Assembly: GCF_021653975.1 (NCBI RefSeq)
Contig: NZ_JAJKFK010000001.1
Location: forward strand, 620,001 to 684,000
DNA length: 64,000 nt
Direction of reading: 5' to 3'
Source: Amycolatopsis sp. GM8
GTDB taxonomy: Bacteria; Actinomycetota; Actinomycetes; Mycobacteriales; Pseudonocardiaceae
The notes beneath the pieces are model-generated. The model was not told the origin of the DNA. It did no database searches and saw only the letters and a list, made by a program, of their open reading frames with translations. The translations under genes and the position numbers were made by a program. Positions 783-7,385 of this stretch are shown here, one piece after another (within the stretch, counting starts at the first letter, position 1; the number at the start of each line of letters is the position of its first letter).

Positions 783-1538
783 TTAACTGAACGGGGTCTT
801 CGGCCGTTCCTGCTTCACGCCATCGACGAACACGTCCACCTTCTCGTCGTAGAAGCAGACCAGGCCCTGCACCTTCTGGCTCTCCGGCAGCGTCGTCCGG
901 TAGTACCAGACGACGTCGTTGTGCAGCTGGTCCCCGACGCGCAGCGAGTAGTACTCCGCCTCGCCCTTGTACGGGCAGCGGGTGATCGTGTCGCTCGGCT
1001 CGATCAGGTCCAGCCGCAGGTCGGTCTTGGGCAGGTAGTAGCGCGTCGGCAAGCCGGTCTCGAACAGCAGGCGCGGGTTGCGCGATTCGGCGACCGTCAC
1101 GCCGTCGATCTCGATGCGCACGTGCCGCGAGCTGGCCAGGATGTCGACCCGTTTGTGCGGGTCACGAGGGTGGACGAAGATCTCCTCGTCCTCCTCGAAC
1201 CAGTTGTCCATCGCGGCGAAGTCCAGCCGCACGTGGCCCTTCAGCTCGTCGATCGGCGAGTCCTCGTACTCGTAGGCCGCGTCCACGGCCTCGCGCTCGC
1301 CGACCCGGACGGTCGAGAGCTTCGCGTCGCCACGGCTCGGGGAATGGTAGGTGTTCGCGGACGGCTCGAGCACGCCCGCGACGAAGTCCGTACGCGGAAT
1401 ATAGTAGGCCGGGTAGTACGGGACCTCCCAGACCAGCAGTGGCCGGATGGTGTCGGCGATGACCTTGCCACCGAAGACCACCCGCACCCGCTTGGCACCG
1501 TGTTCGGTCCGCACGCGGCCGCGACTGTCATTGCCCAT
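783..1538 (-). CDS. DUF427 family protein, two tandem DUF427 domains
   Basis: A 251-residue soluble protein made of two copies of the DUF427 domain, roughly residues 18-115 and 130-230. Both copies carry the family signature of an ARNPRLLFETGLPTRYY-like segment (first copy IRPLLVWEVPYYPAYY) followed by a Y/C-P-x-KG-like turn; the second copy has TRCPYKGEAEYYS. The molecular function of DUF427 proteins is not established. The ATG at 1538 begins MGNDSRGRVR. It sits 47 bases after the stop of the asparagine-synthetase-like gene and just before the MBL hydrolase, all on the minus strand. Confidence 0.85.
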   Translation of the reverse strand: MGNDSRGRVRTEHGAKRVRVVFGGKVIADTIRPLLVWEVPYYPAYYIPRTDFVAGVLEPSANTYHSPSRGDAKLSTVRVGEREAVDAAYEYEDSPIDELKGHVRLDFAAMDNWFEEDEEIFVHPRDPHKRVDILASSRHVRIEIDGVTVAESRNPRLLFETGLPTRYYLPKTDLRLDLIEPSDTITRCPYKGEAEYYSLRVGDQLHNDVVWYYRTTLPESQKVQGLVCFYDEKVDVFVDGVKQERPKTPFS

Positions 1539-1585: not shown

Positions 1586-3298
1586 TCAAAGATCGTAAGA
1601 GCGCAGCCACAGTTCGAGGGTGAGTACGAGCCACAGCTTCCCGCCCTGGCGTGGCAGCACTGCGCCCTCGCCGCGCAGCCACGAGCGGATCGTGGCGGGA
1701 CGGAACAGGCCGCGGTCGCGGGCTTCGCGGCCGAGCAGGAGGTCGTGCCCCAGGTCGCGCAGGGGCCCGCGCAGCCATCGCTGGACGGGCACCCGCATGC
1801 CACTCTTCGGCCGGTCGACGATGGTCGCCGGGAGGAGGTCCCGCACCGCTTGCTTGAGCACCCACTTCTCCACCGTGCCGGTCAGCTTGTGGCGTGGCGG
1901 CACGCGGAACGCCTGGTCGATCACCTGCCGGTCGAACAGCGGCGCGCGGCCCTCGACGCCCGCCGACGCGGTCAGGCGCTCCACCTTGGTCAGGATGTGG
2001 TGCGCGCCCTTGGTACGCAGGTTGGTGTGCAGCAGCTGGTTGAGCAGCGTGCTCATCCGGTCCGGCCGCAGGTACGGCTCCAAAAGACGCTCCAGTGCCG
2101 GCGCGGATTCCAGCTCCGCCAAGGCTTTCGTGGTCAGCAGCCGGGGCAGGTCGGCGTAGCACTTGCGATAGGACTCGAGGTAGGCGGTCGCTCGGGCGGT
2201 GGGTGACGGATCGTCGCGAGCCAGCTCGAACACGAGCATCGGAAGGTTCTTCGGCCCGCCGAACACCGGGTCGCCGCCCTCGCCGTTGAGCACCACCCGA
2301 TGTCCGTCGGCGGCGACGGCCTCGGCGAGCAGCAGGTTCGGCACGGTCAGCGGGTCACCCACCGGCGAGTCCAGCAGCGCGACCGTGCCGGCGAGCCGAT
2401 TCGCGACCGCCTCGGGCGCCACCGTCAGCACCCGGTGCCGGGTGCCGCAGTGCGCCGCGACCAGACCGGAGTAGCCGAGCTCGTTGGGCGCGTCGTCGCC
2501 GAAGCTGATCGAATACGTCGAAACGGGATGGTCGCTGAACTTCGCCGCGAGCGCGGTGACCAGGCTGCTGTCGATCCCGCCGGACAGCAGGACGGCGACC
2601 GGTTCGGCGACCGGCAACCTCCGGACCGTCGCCGCCTCCAGGTGCTCACGCAGCGCTTGCGCATGCCCGTCGCCGTCGAGGCTCTCGTCGAGTTCTTCCG
2701 CGGGTTCCCAGAAGACCTCCTCCGCGACCGAGCCGTCGGCGCGCAGCCGCACACACCGCCCGGCGAGCACCTCGGATACCCCGCGCAGCAACGTTTCTTC
2801 GCCGGGCAGGTAGGCGAAGGTGAGGAAGGACCGGACGGCGGGAAGGTTCAGCCCGGTGCCGAGCGTGGGCCAGCGGCGCAACGCGCGCAGCGAACTCGAT
2901 GCGGCCCAACGGTTTCCGGCGCGCGCGTAGAACAGCGTGCGGCCACCGGCGTGGTCGCGGATCAGCAGCAGCTCGTCGCGTTCGGCGATGACGAGCGCGA
3001 ACATGCCCTCCGCGGCGGCGATCCCGGCCAGCCCGAACCTGGCGTAGGACCGCAGGAGCAGTTCGCCGTCGGTGCACTCGGGGGGCGCGCCGAGCCGCGC
3101 GCGCAGCTGGGCCGCGTTGTGCAGGGTGATCTCGCCGACGGCGGTCAGCCCGGCGAACCGGTACGGCCCGGCCGCTTTCCCCGGCATCGCGTCGAGGAGG
3201 CCGATCGACGTGCCCGCCGTCGTTTCGACCGGGCGGGCGCCCATCGCGACGAGCTGGTCGGCCGGGCCATCGCCGTGGCACACACAGAACCGTGGCAA
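1586..3298 (-). CDS. asparagine synthetase-like (AsnB family) amidotransferase
   Basis: A 570-residue two-domain protein with an N-terminal class II glutamine amidotransferase-like half (about 1-190) and a C-terminal asparagine synthase half. The ATP-binding PP-loop SGGIDSS is clear at residues 239-245. AsnB enzymes activate a carboxylate with ATP and transfer ammonia from glutamine. The catalytic N-terminal cysteine expected directly after the initiator Met is missing: the protein starts MPRFCVCHG, with Cys only at 5 and 7. The glutaminase half may therefore be inactive, as in beta-lactam synthetases and lasso cyclases of the same superfamily. The start is a TTG at 3298 with an AAGGGGAG ribosome-binding site a few bases upstream. 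It is the last gene of the operon 6213-1586, 12 bases after the preceding gene. The substrate is unknown; a role in amide or peptide bond formation is inferred. Confidence 0.8.
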   Translation of the reverse strand: MPRFCVCHGDGPADQLVAMGARPVETTAGTSIGLLDAMPGKAAGPYRFAGLTAVGEITLHNAAQLRARLGAPPECTDGELLLRSYARFGLAGIAAAEGMFALVIAERDELLLIRDHAGGRTLFYARAGNRWAASSSLRALRRWPTLGTGLNLPAVRSFLTFAYLPGEETLLRGVSEVLAGRCVRLRADGSVAEEVFWEPAEELDESLDGDGHAQALREHLEAATVRRLPVAEPVAVLLSGGIDSSLVTALAAKFSDHPVSTYSISFGDDAPNELGYSGLVAAHCGTRHRVLTVAPEAVANRLAGTVALLDSPVGDPLTVPNLLLAEAVAADGHRVVLNGEGGDPVFGGPKNLPMLVFELARDDPSPTARATAYLESYRKCYADLPRLLTTKALAELESAPALERLLEPYLRPDRMSTLLNQLLHTNLRTKGAHHILTKVERLTASAGVEGRAPLFDRQVIDQAFRVPPRHKLTGTVEKWVLKQAVRDLLPATIVDRPKSGMRVPVQRWLRGPLRDLGHDLLLGREARDRGLFRPATIRSWLRGEGAVLPRQGGKLWLVLTLELWLRSYDL

Positions 3299-3310
3299 AA
3301 CTGGCTCCCC

Positions 3311-3790
3311 TTAACCGAAGTGGTCGTCGTCGCTGTCGGTTTCCCAGGACACCCCGCTGCCGCCGTCACCCGAGGACTGCGAGGCACTCGCCTGTGCCTG
3401 CTGGCGCAGCTGCTCCTCCTCTTCCGGCGACATGAACGCGGGCGGCAGCTCGATCGCGGCGATCGTGGCGCCGATGCCCACCGCGGCGAGGATCGCGCCG
3501 ACCCGGCCGCCGAAGGAGGTGCGGTTGGTGGTGAGCACGTTGTCGCTCCACGCGGTGCGGCCGAAGCCGAGGTCCTTGCCGTAGCGGACCGAGCCGTCCG
3601 CGGTGGTGCGCTTGATCATTCGCCGCCCGAGCGGCTCGTCGGTGCCCGTGCCGCCCTGATCGTCGCGCCAGTGCACCCGGCCGGACGCGTCACGGGTGCG
3701 CCACTCGTGGCGCCCGTCGGAGTAGCGCCGGTGCACCGTGCCGTCGGCGAGCAGCTCGTCGGTGTAGGTGATCTCCTGGCGGGGTCGCAA
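3311..3790 (-). CDS. small membrane protein with charged beta-rich N-terminus and acidic tail
   Basis: A 159-residue protein I do not recognise. The first 75 residues are polar and alternate like beta strands, with repeated short motifs of the type DG-x-V/H-x-R-Y/W (DGTVHRRYSDGRHEWR, then DASGRVHWRD, then DGSVRYG), reminiscent of beta-hairpin repeats. A hydrophobic stretch at about 98-115 (VGAILAAVGIGATIAAI) probably spans the membrane. The last 40 residues are Glu/Gln/Ser rich and end in DSDDDHFG. I chose the TTG at 3790 because a GGAGG sits six bases upstream; an earlier in-frame start would overlap the previous gene. It lies 14 bases downstream of one TOPRIM-like gene and 12 bases upstream of the asparagine-synthetase-like gene, so it is part of that operon. 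Confidence 0.7.
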   Translation of the reverse strand: MRPRQEITYTDELLADGTVHRRYSDGRHEWRTRDASGRVHWRDDQGGTGTDEPLGRRMIKRTTADGSVRYGKDLGFGRTAWSDNVLTTNRTSFGGRVGAILAAVGIGATIAAIELPPAFMSPEEEEQLRQQAQASASQSSGDGGSGVSWETDSDDDHFG

Positions 3791-3804
3791 CGTGAAACCT
3801 CCGG

Positions 3805-4560
3805 CTATCTTCTGGGCCAGGTAAGGAAACCAAGGCTGCGCGCCCGCCGCAGGCCGTTCCACTGTGGACGGTCGGCGGGCACGTCGCGCACCAGCCGGTG
3901 GGTGAACCGCAGCAGCATCGCCGGGTTGACCGAGGCGACTTCGGCGAACCGGCCCTCCGGGCCGCGTCCGCGCACCAGGTGCATCGCCGCCGCCTGCCGG
4001 GGACGCAACCCGAGCGGCAGCACCCGCACCCGCGGTGGCGCGGTGATCGTCCGGCCGAGCGCGAGCGCCTCGGGACTCGCGTCGTGCAGGTAGTAGATCG
4101 TTCCGTCCACAGTGGACATCATCGCGGTCAGCCGCGGGTCAAGTGGCAGCTCGTCCAGGCCGAACACCGGGCAGGCCGACTCCATCGGCATCCCGTTCGC
4201 CCGGAGCATGCCCGCGATCTCCTGCCGCTGGCAGACCAGCACGCGCGGCAGGCCGTAGTGGAACAGGTCCGGCTCTGCCGTGTGCCGGCCCGCGGGCGCG
4301 CGACGCGGTGCCAACTCGGCCTCGCTGAGCAGGCCGGGGACGGCGCCGAACCGGTCCAGCGCGGCGCGGAACGCGGGATAGCCGACGGCCGGCGCCACCG
4401 TGAACCGCGGACGTTTCGGGATCCAGTCGGCGGGCCGCAGCACCCGGCACAGCTCGTAGTACAGCTGCCGCTCGGTGAACCGGATCCCGCCGGGCTCGCC
4501 GGCACGGGCGACCGCGACGGCGAGCGCGCGGTCGATCAACACCCTCCTGGTGCCGCTCAT
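3805..4560 (-). CDS. TOPRIM-like protein (topoisomerase VI-A-like), degenerate paralogue
   Basis: A 251-residue soluble protein, distantly similar along its length to its upstream neighbour (4619-5611) but without the zinc ribbon and membrane segments. Near the N-terminus, FTERQLYYELCR (29-40) resembles the winged-helix segment of Spo11/topoisomerase VI A proteins. A strand with Glu114 (VLVCQRQEIAGML) and a later YYLHDASPEAL (156-166) occupy the places of the TOPRIM Glu and DxDPxG motifs; here the second motif is DASPEA, so metal binding may be lost. It ends in LGFLTWPRR, a tail shared with the neighbour. It overlaps the upstream 21-codon frame by ATGA. The TOPRIM assignment is my inference from motif order and needs structure comparison. 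Function unknown. Confidence 0.75.
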   Translation of the reverse strand: MSGTRRVLIDRALAVAVARAGEPGGIRFTERQLYYELCRVLRPADWIPKRPRFTVAPAVGYPAFRAALDRFGAVPGLLSEAELAPRRAPAGRHTAEPDLFHYGLPRVLVCQRQEIAGMLRANGMPMESACPVFGLDELPLDPRLTAMMSTVDGTIYYLHDASPEALALGRTITAPPRVRVLPLGLRPRQAAAMHLVRGRGPEGRFAEVASVNPAMLLRFTHRLVRDVPADRPQWNGLRRARSLGFLTWPRR

Positions 4561-4644
4561 GCCGCCGGCCAAGTCAGGAAGCCGAGCGCGCGGTCGATCA
4601 ACGCCCTCCTGGTGCCGTTCATGCGGCCGGCCAGGTCAGGAAGC
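4521..4644. repeat. 62-bp tandem duplication across a gene junction
   Basis: Two head-to-tail copies, 4521-4582 and 4583-4644, differ at only about four of 62 positions. Each copy carries, on the minus strand, the last codons of one gene (LGFLTWP tail), the ATGA stop/start overlap and the first codons of the next (M-x-GTRR-x-LIDRAL). The duplication therefore creates an extra 21-codon reading frame between the two paralogous genes while preserving translational coupling on both sides. Confidence 0.9.
4557..4622 (-). CDS. 21-residue chimeric mini-ORF created by duplication
   Basis: A short frame that starts with the first codons of the downstream gene (MNGTRRALIDRAL) and ends with the last codons of the upstream one (GFLTWPAA). 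It overlaps its upstream neighbour by ATGA at 4619-4622 and its downstream neighbour by ATGA at 4557-4560. It is the direct product of the 62-bp duplication and keeps ribosomes moving from one gene to the next. Whether the peptide has any role is unknown; it may only be a translational bridge. Confidence 0.45.
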   Translation of the reverse strand: MNGTRRALIDRALGFLTWPAA

Positions 4645-5611
4645 CCAGCTGCTCCGCCTTGCGTTCGGCCCGGGTCAGCCGGTCCGCGGCGCGGTTCACC
4701 ATGGCGATGAGGCGGGCCGGCGGCACCGCGGCGACAGGTGCCCAGTAGCCGTCGCCGAGCCAAGTCTGTTCGGACTGGTGCAGGTCGTAGTGGGACAGGC
4801 CGGTGACCCGGCCGCGTTCCTTGGTCCGCAACTTGACGATTCCCTTGGCCCGCATGGCGTTCCGGGGCCGCAGCCCGGCGACGGCGACCGGTCGTCCACC
4901 CAGCTCCATCAGCGCGCGGTCGGCGAACCGGATGCCCGTGGGGTTCGCGTCGTGCACGATCACGACCGGGATGTCCGGCGGCAGCGCTTCGACCGAACCC
5001 GCGGTGATCATGTTCCGCGCTTCCAGCACCCCGTTGGCGGCGAGACAGGCCACCACGCTCTCGTCCGCGCACAGCAACGCCAGCTCGGCGCGCTGGGGCC
5101 GGGGTATCGCGACCCGTTGCTCGTGGACCAGCAGTCCCGGCGGCAGCCCGGCGTACACCCGCTGCCATTTCCGGCCGACCTCCTCGCGGAACGTCTCCTT
5201 GGACATCGGGATGACCGTCTCACCGCGATGCAGCAGCTGCCGCGCGATCACGTAGATCCCGAGCGCGACGAGGACGGCGAGCACGCCGTAGAGAATCCGC
5301 GGGTCGATATGTGCCACGACGGTCAGGATCACCGACGCCACGCCCGCGACCACGAGCAGGCAGCCGCACCCGCTGACACTGCTTTCCGGTGACTCCAGTG
5401 CCTTCCGGGACGCGGAGTACCAGAGCTGGGTGGTGGTGTAGCGCGCCTTGCCGCCGTCGCTGAGCTTGCCGGCGAGCTTGCGCAGGCGGATGTCGTGCAG
5501 GCGCAGCTTGTTCGTCTTCGGGTCGAAGACGAACTGCTTCCGGCAGTACTTGCAGTAGGACCCTCCGCGCTCGCGGCCGAGCAGGTTCTTGCCGCAGTGC
5601 GGGCAGATCAT
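4619..5611 (-). CDS. zinc-ribbon, two-TM protein with TOPRIM-like domain
   Basis: A 330-residue protein. Residues 3-23 form a zinc ribbon (CPHC then CKYC). Two membrane helices follow at about 84-101 and 106-124, after a segment YTTTQLWYSASRK that resembles a winged-helix motif. The C-terminal half looks like a TOPRIM fold: a strand with Glu184 (LLCADESVVACLAANG), then a strand ending in the metal-motif-like DANPTG (221-226), close to the DxDPxG motif of topoisomerase VI A/Spo11. It ends LGFLTWPAA, like its downstream paralogue. The start codon overlaps the stop of the cupin gene (ATGA, 5608-5611). If the TOPRIM call is right it would bind DNA or a nucleotide substrate at the membrane; that is inference. 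Confidence 0.75.
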   Translation of the reverse strand: MICPHCGKNLLGRERGGSYCKYCRKQFVFDPKTNKLRLHDIRLRKLAGKLSDGGKARYTTTQLWYSASRKALESPESSVSGCGCLLVVAGVASVILTVVAHIDPRILYGVLAVLVALGIYVIARQLLHRGETVIPMSKETFREEVGRKWQRVYAGLPPGLLVHEQRVAIPRPQRAELALLCADESVVACLAANGVLEARNMITAGSVEALPPDIPVVIVHDANPTGIRFADRALMELGGRPVAVAGLRPRNAMRAKGIVKLRTKERGRVTGLSHYDLHQSEQTWLGDGYWAPVAAVPPARLIAMVNRAADRLTRAERKAEQLGFLTWPAA

Positions 5612-6213
5612 CGCGTCTCCAACCGCATGGCCATCCGACGCAGCAGCGTCGCCGTCCGTTCCCGCCAGGTGGTGCCACCCGGCGCGGCGCCGAGCCGGCC
5701 CAGCCCTTCGGCGAGCGCCTCGTCACCGCGAGCCCGCGCGTCCTCGGCGGTGATCGCGTAGTCGTCGTGGTCGATGCCGAACCCGGTGTTCGCGGTGAGG
5801 ATCTGCAGCGGCCGGCCGGCCCGGTTGGCGAAGGAATGGGGCATCAGCTCGGGAATCCGGAGCATCTCGCCCGGGCCCAGCCGGAGCGTGACGGCCCTGT
5901 TGACCGAGGCGTCGTACAGCGCGCATTCAGCGTGGCCCAGGCTGAGCACGAAATGCTCGCCGCCGTGCGCGTGCGGGGTGAACGCGCTGTGCGGGGCGAC
6001 GATCCCCAGTTTGTAGGTGGCGTTGCTGGGCCGTTCCGGTGACGTCTTCGCGTCGCCGATGAAGTACCGAGCGAACTGGCCGTCGTCGATGAACCGCAGG
6101 AACTCCGCGTCCGGCCCCAGTTTTCGCGCGCCCGCCCGGTCGGTCAGCGTGACCTCGCCGTCCGGGGCGAACGAGTACAGCTCGACGCCGGCCGGCATGA
6201 GCCCGGACCGCAT
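5608..6213 (-). CDS. cupin-domain protein
   Basis: A 201-residue single cupin. Motif 1 is visible around residues 77-95 (HSAFTPHAHGGEHFVLSLG, giving the H-x-H-x3-E metal ligands). Motif 2 appears as PGEMLRIPELMPHSFANRAG with its histidine. Cupins bind a metal in a beta barrel and may be enzymes or sensors, so no substrate can be assigned. The start ATG at 6213 is preceded by a strong GAGGGGAGAAGG site. It is the first gene of a minus-strand operon that continues with overlapping stop/start codons into the zinc-ribbon TOPRIM-like gene. Confidence 0.8.
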   Translation of the reverse strand: MRSGLMPAGVELYSFAPDGEVTLTDRAGARKLGPDAEFLRFIDDGQFARYFIGDAKTSPERPSNATYKLGIVAPHSAFTPHAHGGEHFVLSLGHAECALYDASVNRAVTLRLGPGEMLRIPELMPHSFANRAGRPLQILTANTGFGIDHDDYAITAEDARARGDEALAEGLGRLGAAPGGTTWRERTATLLRRMAMRLETR

Positions 6214-6311
6214 GCCTTCTCCCCTCGACACCCGCGAATCGTAGATCAGGTTCGGGTTCTCGCGGGGCGCTTCCGGGCAACGGTTTCGCGCAGCTCACGT
6301 TGGTTTTTCCC

Positions 6312-7385
6312 TCACCCCGTGATGATCAGCCACGCCTCGCCGCGCGCGCCCGGCTCGTAGACCGAGTCGAGCCGTTTCGCCAGGATGCCGGTGAGTCCGT
6401 TGTCCAGCGCCGCTTCGAGCACGTCAGCGCCGCCGCCGGTGTAATGCTGCGGGACGCGCCAGCTGTCACCTTCGAGGCCGAGCTTGCGCAGCCGCTGCCG
6501 CCGGCGCGTGTACGGCTGGTCGAGCTGGGACTTGCCGTCCAGGTGCAGGAGGTCGAACGGCAGGTACAGCACGGGAACCGAGGCCAGCAGCCGCTTGGCC
6601 TGGCGGTGATCCGCCCCGGCCCGGCGGGCCAGCGCGGCGGCGCTCGGTTTGCCGCCCTCGAGCGCGATCAGGTTGCCGTCGAGCAGGACCTCGGTGGTGC
6701 CGAGCTGCTCGCCGAGTTCCTTCAGCTCGGGATACTTCGCGGTGATCTCGTCGCCTTCCGCGTCCCGGATCTCGACCCGGCCGCCTTCCACGCGCACCTG
6801 CGCGCGGGCGCCGTCCCAGAGGAACTCGTACGCCCAGCCGGCATCGTCCTCGGGGAGTTTTCCCTTGCGTGGCAGCATCGGCTGGACGAACTTGGGGAGT
6901 TCGGCGAACCCGCGCCGCTGCGGCGGGTCCAGTCGCCGCACGATCCAGTCGCGCTCGTCACGGCCGGAATGCCGGTTCACGAACAGGTATTTGCCGCGCA
7001 CGCGGGAGCCGTGCAGGACGACCTCGACCTTGTGGTCACCCCAGTGCAGCGTCTCGTAGTGGCCGCGGTCCCAGATCTTCATGACGCCGCCGCCGTACTC
7101 GCCCGCCGGGATCTCGCCTTCGAACGTCGCGTACTCCAGCGGATGGTCCTCGGTGTGCACGGCGAGCCGGTTGGTCTCCGGCAACGGCGGCAGGCCCTTG
7201 GGCACGGCCCACGACACGAGCACGCCGTCGCGCTCGAACCGCACGTCCCAGTGCAACTGGCGGGCGTGGTGCTCCTGGATGACGAACGTGTCGTCGTTCC
7301 CGCGCGGCAACGAGTCGTCGGCAGGCACCGGCTCCGGGGTCCGTTCCGGATCCCGTTTCCGCCGGTACTCGCCGAGATCGGGCAC
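6312..7385 (-). CDS. LigD-like protein: 3'-phosphoesterase domain plus degenerate ligase domain
   Basis: A 357-residue protein. Residues about 25-150 match the LigD 3'-phosphoesterase domain, with QEHHARQLHWDVRFE and the HPLEYATFEGEIPAGEYG signature. From about 165 it follows the ATP-dependent ligase adenylation domain. Motif I reads YEFLWDGAR (186-194), so the nucleotidyl-accepting lysine is replaced by Leu189. Motif III-like FDLLHLDG is retained. Motif IV reads TGILAKRLDSVYEPG with Thr for Glu. The protein ends at WLIITG, with no OB-fold. It can therefore hardly ligate DNA; the phosphoesterase half, which trims 3' ends in bacterial non-homologous end joining, looks intact. GTG start. No Ku gene is in the window. 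Confidence 0.85.
   Translation of the reverse strand: MPDLGEYRRKRDPERTPEPVPADDSLPRGNDDTFVIQEHHARQLHWDVRFERDGVLVSWAVPKGLPPLPETNRLAVHTEDHPLEYATFEGEIPAGEYGGGVMKIWDRGHYETLHWGDHKVEVVLHGSRVRGKYLFVNRHSGRDERDWIVRRLDPPQRRGFAELPKFVQPMLPRKGKLPEDDAGWAYEFLWDGARAQVRVEGGRVEIRDAEGDEITAKYPELKELGEQLGTTEVLLDGNLIALEGGKPSAAALARRAGADHRQAKRLLASVPVLYLPFDLLHLDGKSQLDQPYTRRRQRLRKLGLEGDSWRVPQHYTGGGADVLEAALDNGLTGILAKRLDSVYEPGARGEAWLIITG

Follow-up and report, generated by a model that had tools for sequence, protein, structure and literature searches.

The window analysed here is a 64,000-nt stretch of Amycolatopsis sp. GM8 (NZ_JAJKFK010000001.1, forward strand, 620,001-684,000). Positions 1586-6213 of this window hold five genes, all on the minus strand, of which a cupin-type gene comes first and is followed by topA, topB, mem and asnB. 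A first-pass annotation had proposed this set, and all five genes were found where it had placed them. The features of the locus are:

Cupin-type gene: 5608..6213, minus strand; 201 aa; Cupin_2 match below cut-off; homologues in other loci
topA: 4619..5611, minus strand; 330 aa; Zn ribbon, T-x-x-Q-L-W-Y stretch, hydrophobic block, TOPRIM-like half, C-terminal GFLTWP motif
topB: 3805..4560, minus strand; 251 aa; soluble topA paralogue; T-x-R-Q-L-Y-Y stretch, TOPRIM-like half, GFLTWP motif
mem: 3311..3790, minus strand; 159 aa; DG-rich beta-hairpin-like N-terminal domain, one hydrophobic segment, acidic Gly/Ser-rich tail ending ...DDHFG
asnB: 1586..3298, minus strand; 570 aa; asparagine-synthetase-family amide ligase; PP loop SGGIDSS, GEGGDPVFGG, position 2 not Cys
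Tandem duplication with 62-bp unit, topA/topB junction: 4521..4649, no strand; holds a 21-codon mini-ORF, 4557-4622, minus strand
DUF427 gene: 783..1538, minus strand; downstream border of the site, outside the system
LigD-like ligase gene: 6312..7385, minus strand; upstream border of the site, outside the system

The tight packing described in the first pass holds at the cupin/topA overlap (4 bases, ATGA) and at the topB/mem and mem/asnB gaps (14 and 12 bases), but not between topA and topB, which are 58 bases apart. A -4 overlap and one copy of the 62-bp tandem unit (2.1 copies, 92% matches) add up to this distance; the same junction measures -1, -4, -1, 43, -4 and -1 in the other measured loci (starts assigned by us). 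The extra copy gives rise to the mini-ORF between the two genes, which has an ATGA overlap with both neighbours.

Conservation and distribution of the gene set

The core topA-topB-mem-asnB is identical in order and strand in all 11 complete loci, and three further carrier loci are interrupted by contig ends (n=14 carriers in total). This order, with topA in one or two copies, extends across several genera of actinobacteria. Protein identity across four compared loci is 36-71%, and asnB is the best conserved of the proteins (68-71%, versus 36-42% for topA). The operon is real, and its recurrence in 11/11 complete loci makes it more than chance. The earlier claim of an unrecognised gene set kept together beyond this strain survives the genome comparison: the set is rare, and several actinobacterial groups keep it in one order. 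Searches of open-licence PMC papers with combinations of the conserved parts brought up no publication recognisable as dealing with it.

Within the genus, one of 19 genomes has the cassette, and seven sister genomes that we read have other genes at the same site; the DUF427 border gene is present in 18/19 and the LigD-like border gene in 14/19. In samples of 394 genomes of the class, the six genomes with a cassette-type AsnB are also the six with strong topB matches; weak matches to topB in G518, G751 and G837 (E 0.003-0.009) and to mem in G213 (6.6e-4) were not counted as cassettes. Two copies are on plasmid records. It is scarcely credible that these genes form a chance or degenerate neighbourhood without joint function: their rarity, a decayed remnant copy in locus L077 and a degenerate extra topA-like frame in L073 would be in keeping with this, but the idea is already contradicted by the conserved gene order, and also has to contend with the co-occurrence of the topB and asnB types.

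Our data do not prove a recent transfer of the cassette. In the asnB tree, seven other rows cluster with the window (support 89/92, not a starred fork); we took them as belonging to the window's own order, so that an ancient cassette lost in some lineages is also a possibility. The decayed L077 copy fits such losses. In five other loci, the ten flanking genes that we scanned belong to metabolic or housekeeping types.

An asparagine-synthetase-type enzyme without the glutaminase nucleophile

The asnB product matches Pfam Asn_synthase (PF00733; 4.5e-75, 254 bits) and GATase_7 (6.1e-11), and reaches the cut-off in none of the NCBIfam models that it matched, including TIGR01536 (234.1 bits, cut-off 267.1) and the lasso peptide cyclase model NF033535 (108.2 bits, cut-off 525). 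Alignments to PDB entries place the PP loop SGGIDSS, the Glu of GEGGD on that of GEGSD in AsnB, and the Lys of RPKSGM on Lys stretches of beta-lactam synthetase and AsnB; we take this Glu and Lys to be catalytic. The missing glutaminase Cys, already pointed out in the first pass, is a general feature, with no Cys at position 2 in 14/14 starts read (starts assigned by us; that of G987 was not set). Judged from its sequence, asnB keeps the synthetase-site motifs and is without the glutaminase nucleophile.

Beta-lactam synthetase, CarA and the lasso cyclases form an amide or lactam with a dead glutaminase, and the glutaminase half of cassette asnB is dead like that of beta-lactam synthetase. With these enzymes and the AsnB family, cassette asnB shares the Asn_synthase domain, the PP loop and the Lys region of the synthetase site, but it has partners unlike theirs, and beta-lactam synthetase has GYGAD where cassette asnB keeps the AsnB-type Glu (GEGGD). 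The closest PDB relatives have biosynthetic roles: hydroxyamidotransferase 7ylz (3.8e-31) and beta-lactam synthetase (7.7e-29) both score better than AsnB (1e-24). They argue for a specialised-metabolite or cofactor pathway, in which asnB would make a small-molecule amide or lactam, the cupin would tailor it, and mem, topA and topB would serve export, immunity or sensing. A cyanobacterial plasmid, in which a topA-type protein is paired with an AsnB of the cassette type, points the same way, as its topA-type gene has in the vicinity an LCM methyltransferase, a second AsnB and a PLP decarboxylase resembling LysA (1.2e-72); so do the patchy distribution and the plasmid-borne copies. Against such a pathway, the conserved core has no carrier, peptide-synthetase or transport gene, and what accompanies asnB there is a membrane protein together with TOPRIM-like proteins that belong to no Pfam family.

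topA and topB are paralogues whose TOPRIM-like half has lost most metal residues

Profile-profile comparison shows that topA and topB are paralogues (99.1%, E 4e-19; 99.6%, E 6.7e-24 with larger alignments), in line with the earlier view of topB as a soluble paralogue. The zinc ribbon proposed for topA is likewise upheld, its cysteines 3, 6, 20 and 23 being invariant in 10/10 topA rows; a hydrophobic block spans approximately residues 82-127. Both proteins, like mem, stay under the curated family cut-offs of Pfam and NCBIfam, and a Pfam scan of every member of the three alignments gave the same result. In PHROGs, 18 topA/topB members matched no family at the curated cut-off (one member matched at 7e-4). 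The GFLTWP motif is no free C-terminal tag, a reading that we dropped because Streptomyces topA1 and topA2 continue beyond it.

The TOPRIM-like half is the C-terminal one, and we built a TOPRIM-half profile from 28 of the 31 topA/topB-type sequences, leaving aside L032 topB (long insertion), L034 topB and L043 topA1. Three of the five PDB sequences that it matched at E<=10 are TOPRIM proteins (E 0.097, 0.35 and 0.36, none significant alone), and one of these is TopoVI-A, aligned in register; the TOPRIM resemblance suggested in the first pass is supported, if by individually weak matches. An 18-row topA/topB profile matched TopoVI-A at E 1.4, and the match was gone from a full-length 29-row profile. 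As in TopoVI-A/Spo11, TOPRIM strand 1 is followed by a D-A-x motif (HDANPTG in window topA, TDADPYG in TopoVI-A 2zbk), and a T-x-x-Q-L-x-Y stretch lies upstream of the TOPRIM part. Unlike TopoVI-A/Spo11, the core has no B subunit, topA has the added Zn ribbon and hydrophobic block, and the metal site is altered: the metal-binding Glu position is Cys in 27/28 rows and Val in one (Cys, by eye, also in the three sequences left aside), and the first Asp of the DxD pair is kept in 26/28 rows, the second in four, which have the full DxD. Given that the Glu and the second Asp are mostly lost, we read topA and topB as probable binding proteins that would not cut.

Active nucleic-acid enzymes that use a conserved Tyr like TopoVI-A/Spo11, with a changed metal site, are a very improbable alternative. 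The Tyr of the T-x-x-Q-L-x-Y stretch, which we take to be equivalent to that of the TopoVI-A winged-helix motif, is conserved in 27 of the 28 rows that have a residue at this position, and L043 topA1, outside the 28-row alignment, adds by eye a further full DxD (HDAD) to the four above. These features are set against the Cys at the Glu position and the loss of the second Asp in 24/28 rows. Moreover, the core proteins had no topoisomerase or GHKL-type match in Pfam, and PF21180 matched 0/100 genomes, including the topA/topB carriers G000 and G079.

We also considered a relation to JetD (Wadjet/MksG), which is not significantly supported. A TOPRIM-like DxD-x-x-G motif is shared, but the core is without an SMC-type partner and there is no significant profile similarity (probabilities of only 0.2-2% against five JetD proteins); unrelated ORFs of the window (n=43) score up to 19.8, a range that takes in four of the five JetD scores and that L037, at 20.9, narrowly exceeds.

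The first pass had offered a membrane-bound nucleic-acid defence unit or a small-molecule pathway. The abstract of PMC13040014 describes TopoVI-A homologues as the nuclease part of MksBEFG, Wadjet and Gabija, and anti-phage or anti-plasmid defence, with TopoVI-A-like proteins as putative membrane sensors of foreign DNA and a ligase that would make or attach an effector, would suit the Zn ribbon and hydrophobic block of topA, the rare and patchy occurrence (1/19 in the genus), the plasmid-record copies and the decayed L077 copy. We nevertheless hold it to be unlikely. PADLOC, run on the five operon proteins and the DUF427 protein, gave two matches at E<=1, of which the best (0.012) is marginal and on the Zn-ribbon stretch; the TOPRIM catalytic residues are mostly lost; the ten flanking genes scanned in other loci are not of defence types; a pattern scan of viral contigs found no topA relative; and asnB is, in our judgement, unusually conserved for a defence protein. 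The small-molecule option is helped by the cyanobacterial decarboxylase and second AsnB.

mem and the variable partner slot

In mem, one hydrophobic segment (residues 97-115) precedes the acidic tail that had been proposed. The tail is variable and its end is fixed, FG in 14/14 and DFG in 13/14. The beta-hairpin-like character ascribed to the protein finds an echo in weak matches of 6/9 mem members to Tcp10_C and a weak resemblance to the CPAP G-box (E 0.24-0.34). mem is not universal, since its profile found no homologue at E<=1 in a 19.5-kb cyanobacterial stretch. The SFG end of the cyanobacterial protein aligns with the SLGF region of topB, and for this reason we do not claim a match to the DFG of mem.

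The window cupin gene approaches Pfam Cupin_2 (E 5.6e-5, 23.2 bits, cut-off 27.2), and its HxHxxE and later His resemble the cupin metal site; homologues lie upstream of topA in L009, L031, L025 and L043. A partner gene is present in 12/14 carriers: five of the window cupin type, six of a type that we call cupL (L006, L007, L008, L074-L076) and one of a third type. By eye, cupL shows only an HxH motif and the stretch PRGxSHQFN. Its reading as a true cupin is not supported: the two of six scanned had no Pfam match, hhalign against the window cupin gave 0.3%, and none of five PDB matches at E<=10 is a cupin. In L007, cupL lies upstream on the opposite strand. Partner slot proteins without detectable similarity fit poorly to the fixed product of a metabolite pathway.

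A possible membrane amide ligase

As the best mechanism we tentatively propose that the cassette may encode an amide ligase that is anchored to the membrane, depends on ATP and might have the acidic tail of mem as its target; a metabolite pathway is about as likely. In the proposed ligase, asnB would adenylate a carboxylate and join it to an amine not supplied by its own glutaminase. The putative carboxylate would most likely be on the mem tail, as no other conserved partner combines a carboxylate-rich tail with an invariant end. topA, a putative membrane protein with a Zn ribbon, and topB, both TOPRIM-like with a decayed metal site, would position or bind the ligase, a ligand or a trigger and would not cut DNA, and the cupin-type or alternative partner, whose family differs between loci, would supply or process a small-molecule partner. 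Passages of PMC11237479 describe ATP-grasp ligases related to glutathionylspermidine synthetase that adjoin membrane proteins, e.g. DUF350 and DUF1190. The likeness, an amide ligase beside small membrane proteins, is an analogy only, as those ligases are ATP-grasp rather than AsnB enzymes and the passages name no TOPRIM proteins.

Several points count against parts of this ligase. If mem were oriented N-in/C-out, the membrane would separate its tail from a cytosolic ligase, and the cyanobacterial stretch without mem also speaks against ligation to the tail. The TOPRIM part has to reckon with individually non-significant matches, the TopoVI-A match lost in the 29-row profile and the unsupported JetD relation; the cupin role, with a cupL that is not a proven cupin and in L007 sits on the opposite strand. 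A more specific version, a new system of protein conjugation or protein amidation in which a trans-acting AsnB-fold ligase would attach an amine to the acidic (D)FG tail of mem and TopoVI-A-derived TOPRIM proteins would provide non-cutting recognition in a membrane-stress or anti-invader response, seems to us distinctly unlikely.

The cassette is compact and patchily distributed, and three of its five proteins fall below every family cut-off searched, yet they accompany an AsnB-type enzyme that is strongly conserved. A ligase that acts on mem would make the cassette a protein-modification system based on the asparagine-synthetase fold; should the TOPRIM reading be right, topoisomerase VI-A-type domains would have been recruited to the membrane without a DNA-cutting role.

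Conservation of the core gene order

The window spans positions 620001–684000 of contig C1 in an 8.16-Mb genome. The relevant features are:

1586–6213, minus strand: five-gene operon (cupin, topA, topB, mem, asnB) flanked by genes for a LigD-like ligase and a DUF427 protein
4521–4649: tandem duplication of a 62-bp unit where topA meets topB

In gene order, the operon's junctions measure -4, 58, 14 and 12 bases. A -4 overlap and one copy of the 62-bp tandem unit add up to the 58-base topA/topB gap, which is absent from all six other loci measured; the duplication also created a 21-codon mini-ORF (4557–4622) that has an ATGA overlap with both neighbours.

In tblastn and HMM searches of fetched genomic stretches, the genes topA, topB, mem (a small membrane protein) and asnB (an amide ligase of the asparagine synthetase family) are adjacent, in the same order and on a single strand. 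This core is complete at 11 loci (the window, L006, L007, L008, L009, L031, L043, L073, L074, L075 and L076); contig ends interrupt it in genome G783 (L025 and L033), L032 and L034, and no complete or contig-end-cut locus has a differing order. Two topA genes are present in L031, L043 and L025, and L073 carries a further, degenerate topA-like frame (5243–6373) between topA and topB. A topA pattern scan of the GTDB species contigs, a method that catches close relatives only, matched Nocardia aurantia and Dactylosporangium aurantiacum; a search of 100 relatives was positive in three genomes, the window's own counted.

Our overlapping genome samples are not independent, and the profiles scored only 3–9 candidates per genome, so the following frequencies are lower bounds: mem in 3/396 phylum genomes (one weakly), topB in 9/394 class genomes (strongly in six), asnB in those same six of the 394 and in 8/397 order genomes, including the L077 remnant, and, within the genus, the cassette in 1/19 genomes. 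In a distant actinobacterium (L035), the mem profile matches weakly (6.6e-4) inside a frame of 549 residues. L077 (6017–7163), from a genome of the same family, is a decayed cassette: cupin fragments in two reading frames run directly into roughly the last 220 residues of asnB, and its 12-kb stretch has no match to topA, topB or mem.

The DUF427 and LigD-like border genes share a contig, with 5.7–9.0 kb between them, in 10 of the 18 other genus genomes. Seven of these 10 intervals (L055–L061) were read and carry other genes, among them, with families assigned from representatives, topoisomerase IB (7/7), a methyltransferase homologue (7/7) and a haem-oxygenase-like gene (6/7). The cassette's site is thus occupied by other genes in sister species. 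A search of the window's genome, run without a positive control, did not find topoisomerase IB. With the asnB tree taken into account, the site may reflect either recent transfer of the cassette or differential loss.

The partner gene differs between loci. The window cupin type lies 5' of topA in five carriers (window, L009, L031, L025 and L043); six others (L006, L007, L008, L074, L075 and L076) have a second partner-slot protein, cupL, whose rows are 74–95% identical to the first cupL row and whose gene in L007 is upstream on the opposite strand. L032 has a third cupin protein at asnB's end, and no partner gene was found in L073 (tblastn) or L034 (blastp of called genes). Similarity between the window cupin type and cupL is undetectable, so the slot may reflect replacement within one fold or two different functions.

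A decayed TOPRIM-like site

TopA and TopB are paralogues. With a 28-row profile of their TOPRIM-like half, just five PDB sequences reach E<=10. Three are TOPRIM proteins, namely TopoVI-A (0.097) and two small ones (0.35 and 0.36); the others are a designed repeat protein (0.091) and a pyrazinamidase (0.36). The full-length 29-row TopA/TopB profile does not recover TopoVI-A. The first-pass annotation had named the TopoVI-A likeness before any search. The TOPRIM fold is common to three of the five matches; no single E value is significant.

In the alignment, the TopoVI-A Glu falls on a Cys and its TDADPYG on HDAS. Cys replaces the TOPRIM Glu in 27/28 TopA/TopB rows; the first Asp of DxD is kept in 26/28 and the second in 4/28, and the Tyr of T-x-x-Q-L-x-Y is present in 27/28 rows with letters. 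A full D-A-D (HDAD) occurs in TopA copies of L031 (two), L025 (725–2029) and L043 (two), four being counted in the 28-row alignment and L043 topA1 by eye; judging from these residues, their metal site may be less decayed. A defence module is the less likely function, because the TOPRIM site is decayed, the flanks are ordinary (10 genes, five other loci) and PADLOC gives no credible match.

A candidate ligase substrate

AsnB matches Pfam Asn_synthase at 254 bits, and its best matches among solved structures are 7ylz, beta-lactam synthetase and AsnB, whose GEGSDEVFGG aligns with GEGGDPVFGG here. The match to the GATase half begins only at profile position 31. Given a dead glutaminase and an intact synthetase site, the amine would derive from a source other than the ligase's own glutaminase. 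The C-terminus of Mem is FG in 14/14 members and DFG in 13/14; six of nine resemble Tcp10_C (best 0.0039), and the CPAP G-box matches at 0.24–0.34.

We hypothesise that the acidic tail of Mem may be the ligase substrate, since no other conserved partner combines a tail rich in carboxylates with an invariant C-terminus. Against this, an N-in/C-out Mem would hold its tail outside, beyond the reach of a cytosolic ligase, and mem is absent beside a cyanobacterial topA-type/asnB pair. This pair is carried by a Gloeothece verrucosa PCC 7822 plasmid. In the plasmid row (L042:10614–14878), the topA-type gene (profile E 1.5e-29 and 7.4e-27) is convergent with a cassette-type asnB (42% identity), and upstream on the topA-type strand lie genes for a second AsnB and a LysA-like decarboxylase; no mem homologue was detected in the plasmid stretch. 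We estimate a specialised-metabolite pathway to be just as probable as tail modification. Direct evidence extends to gene order, families and residues; mechanism beyond them is inferred.

The set draws on known superfamilies: AsnB, cupin and, probably, TOPRIM. In a limited search of open-licence PMC literature, we recognised no description of this set, and no published system known to us would accommodate all of it.
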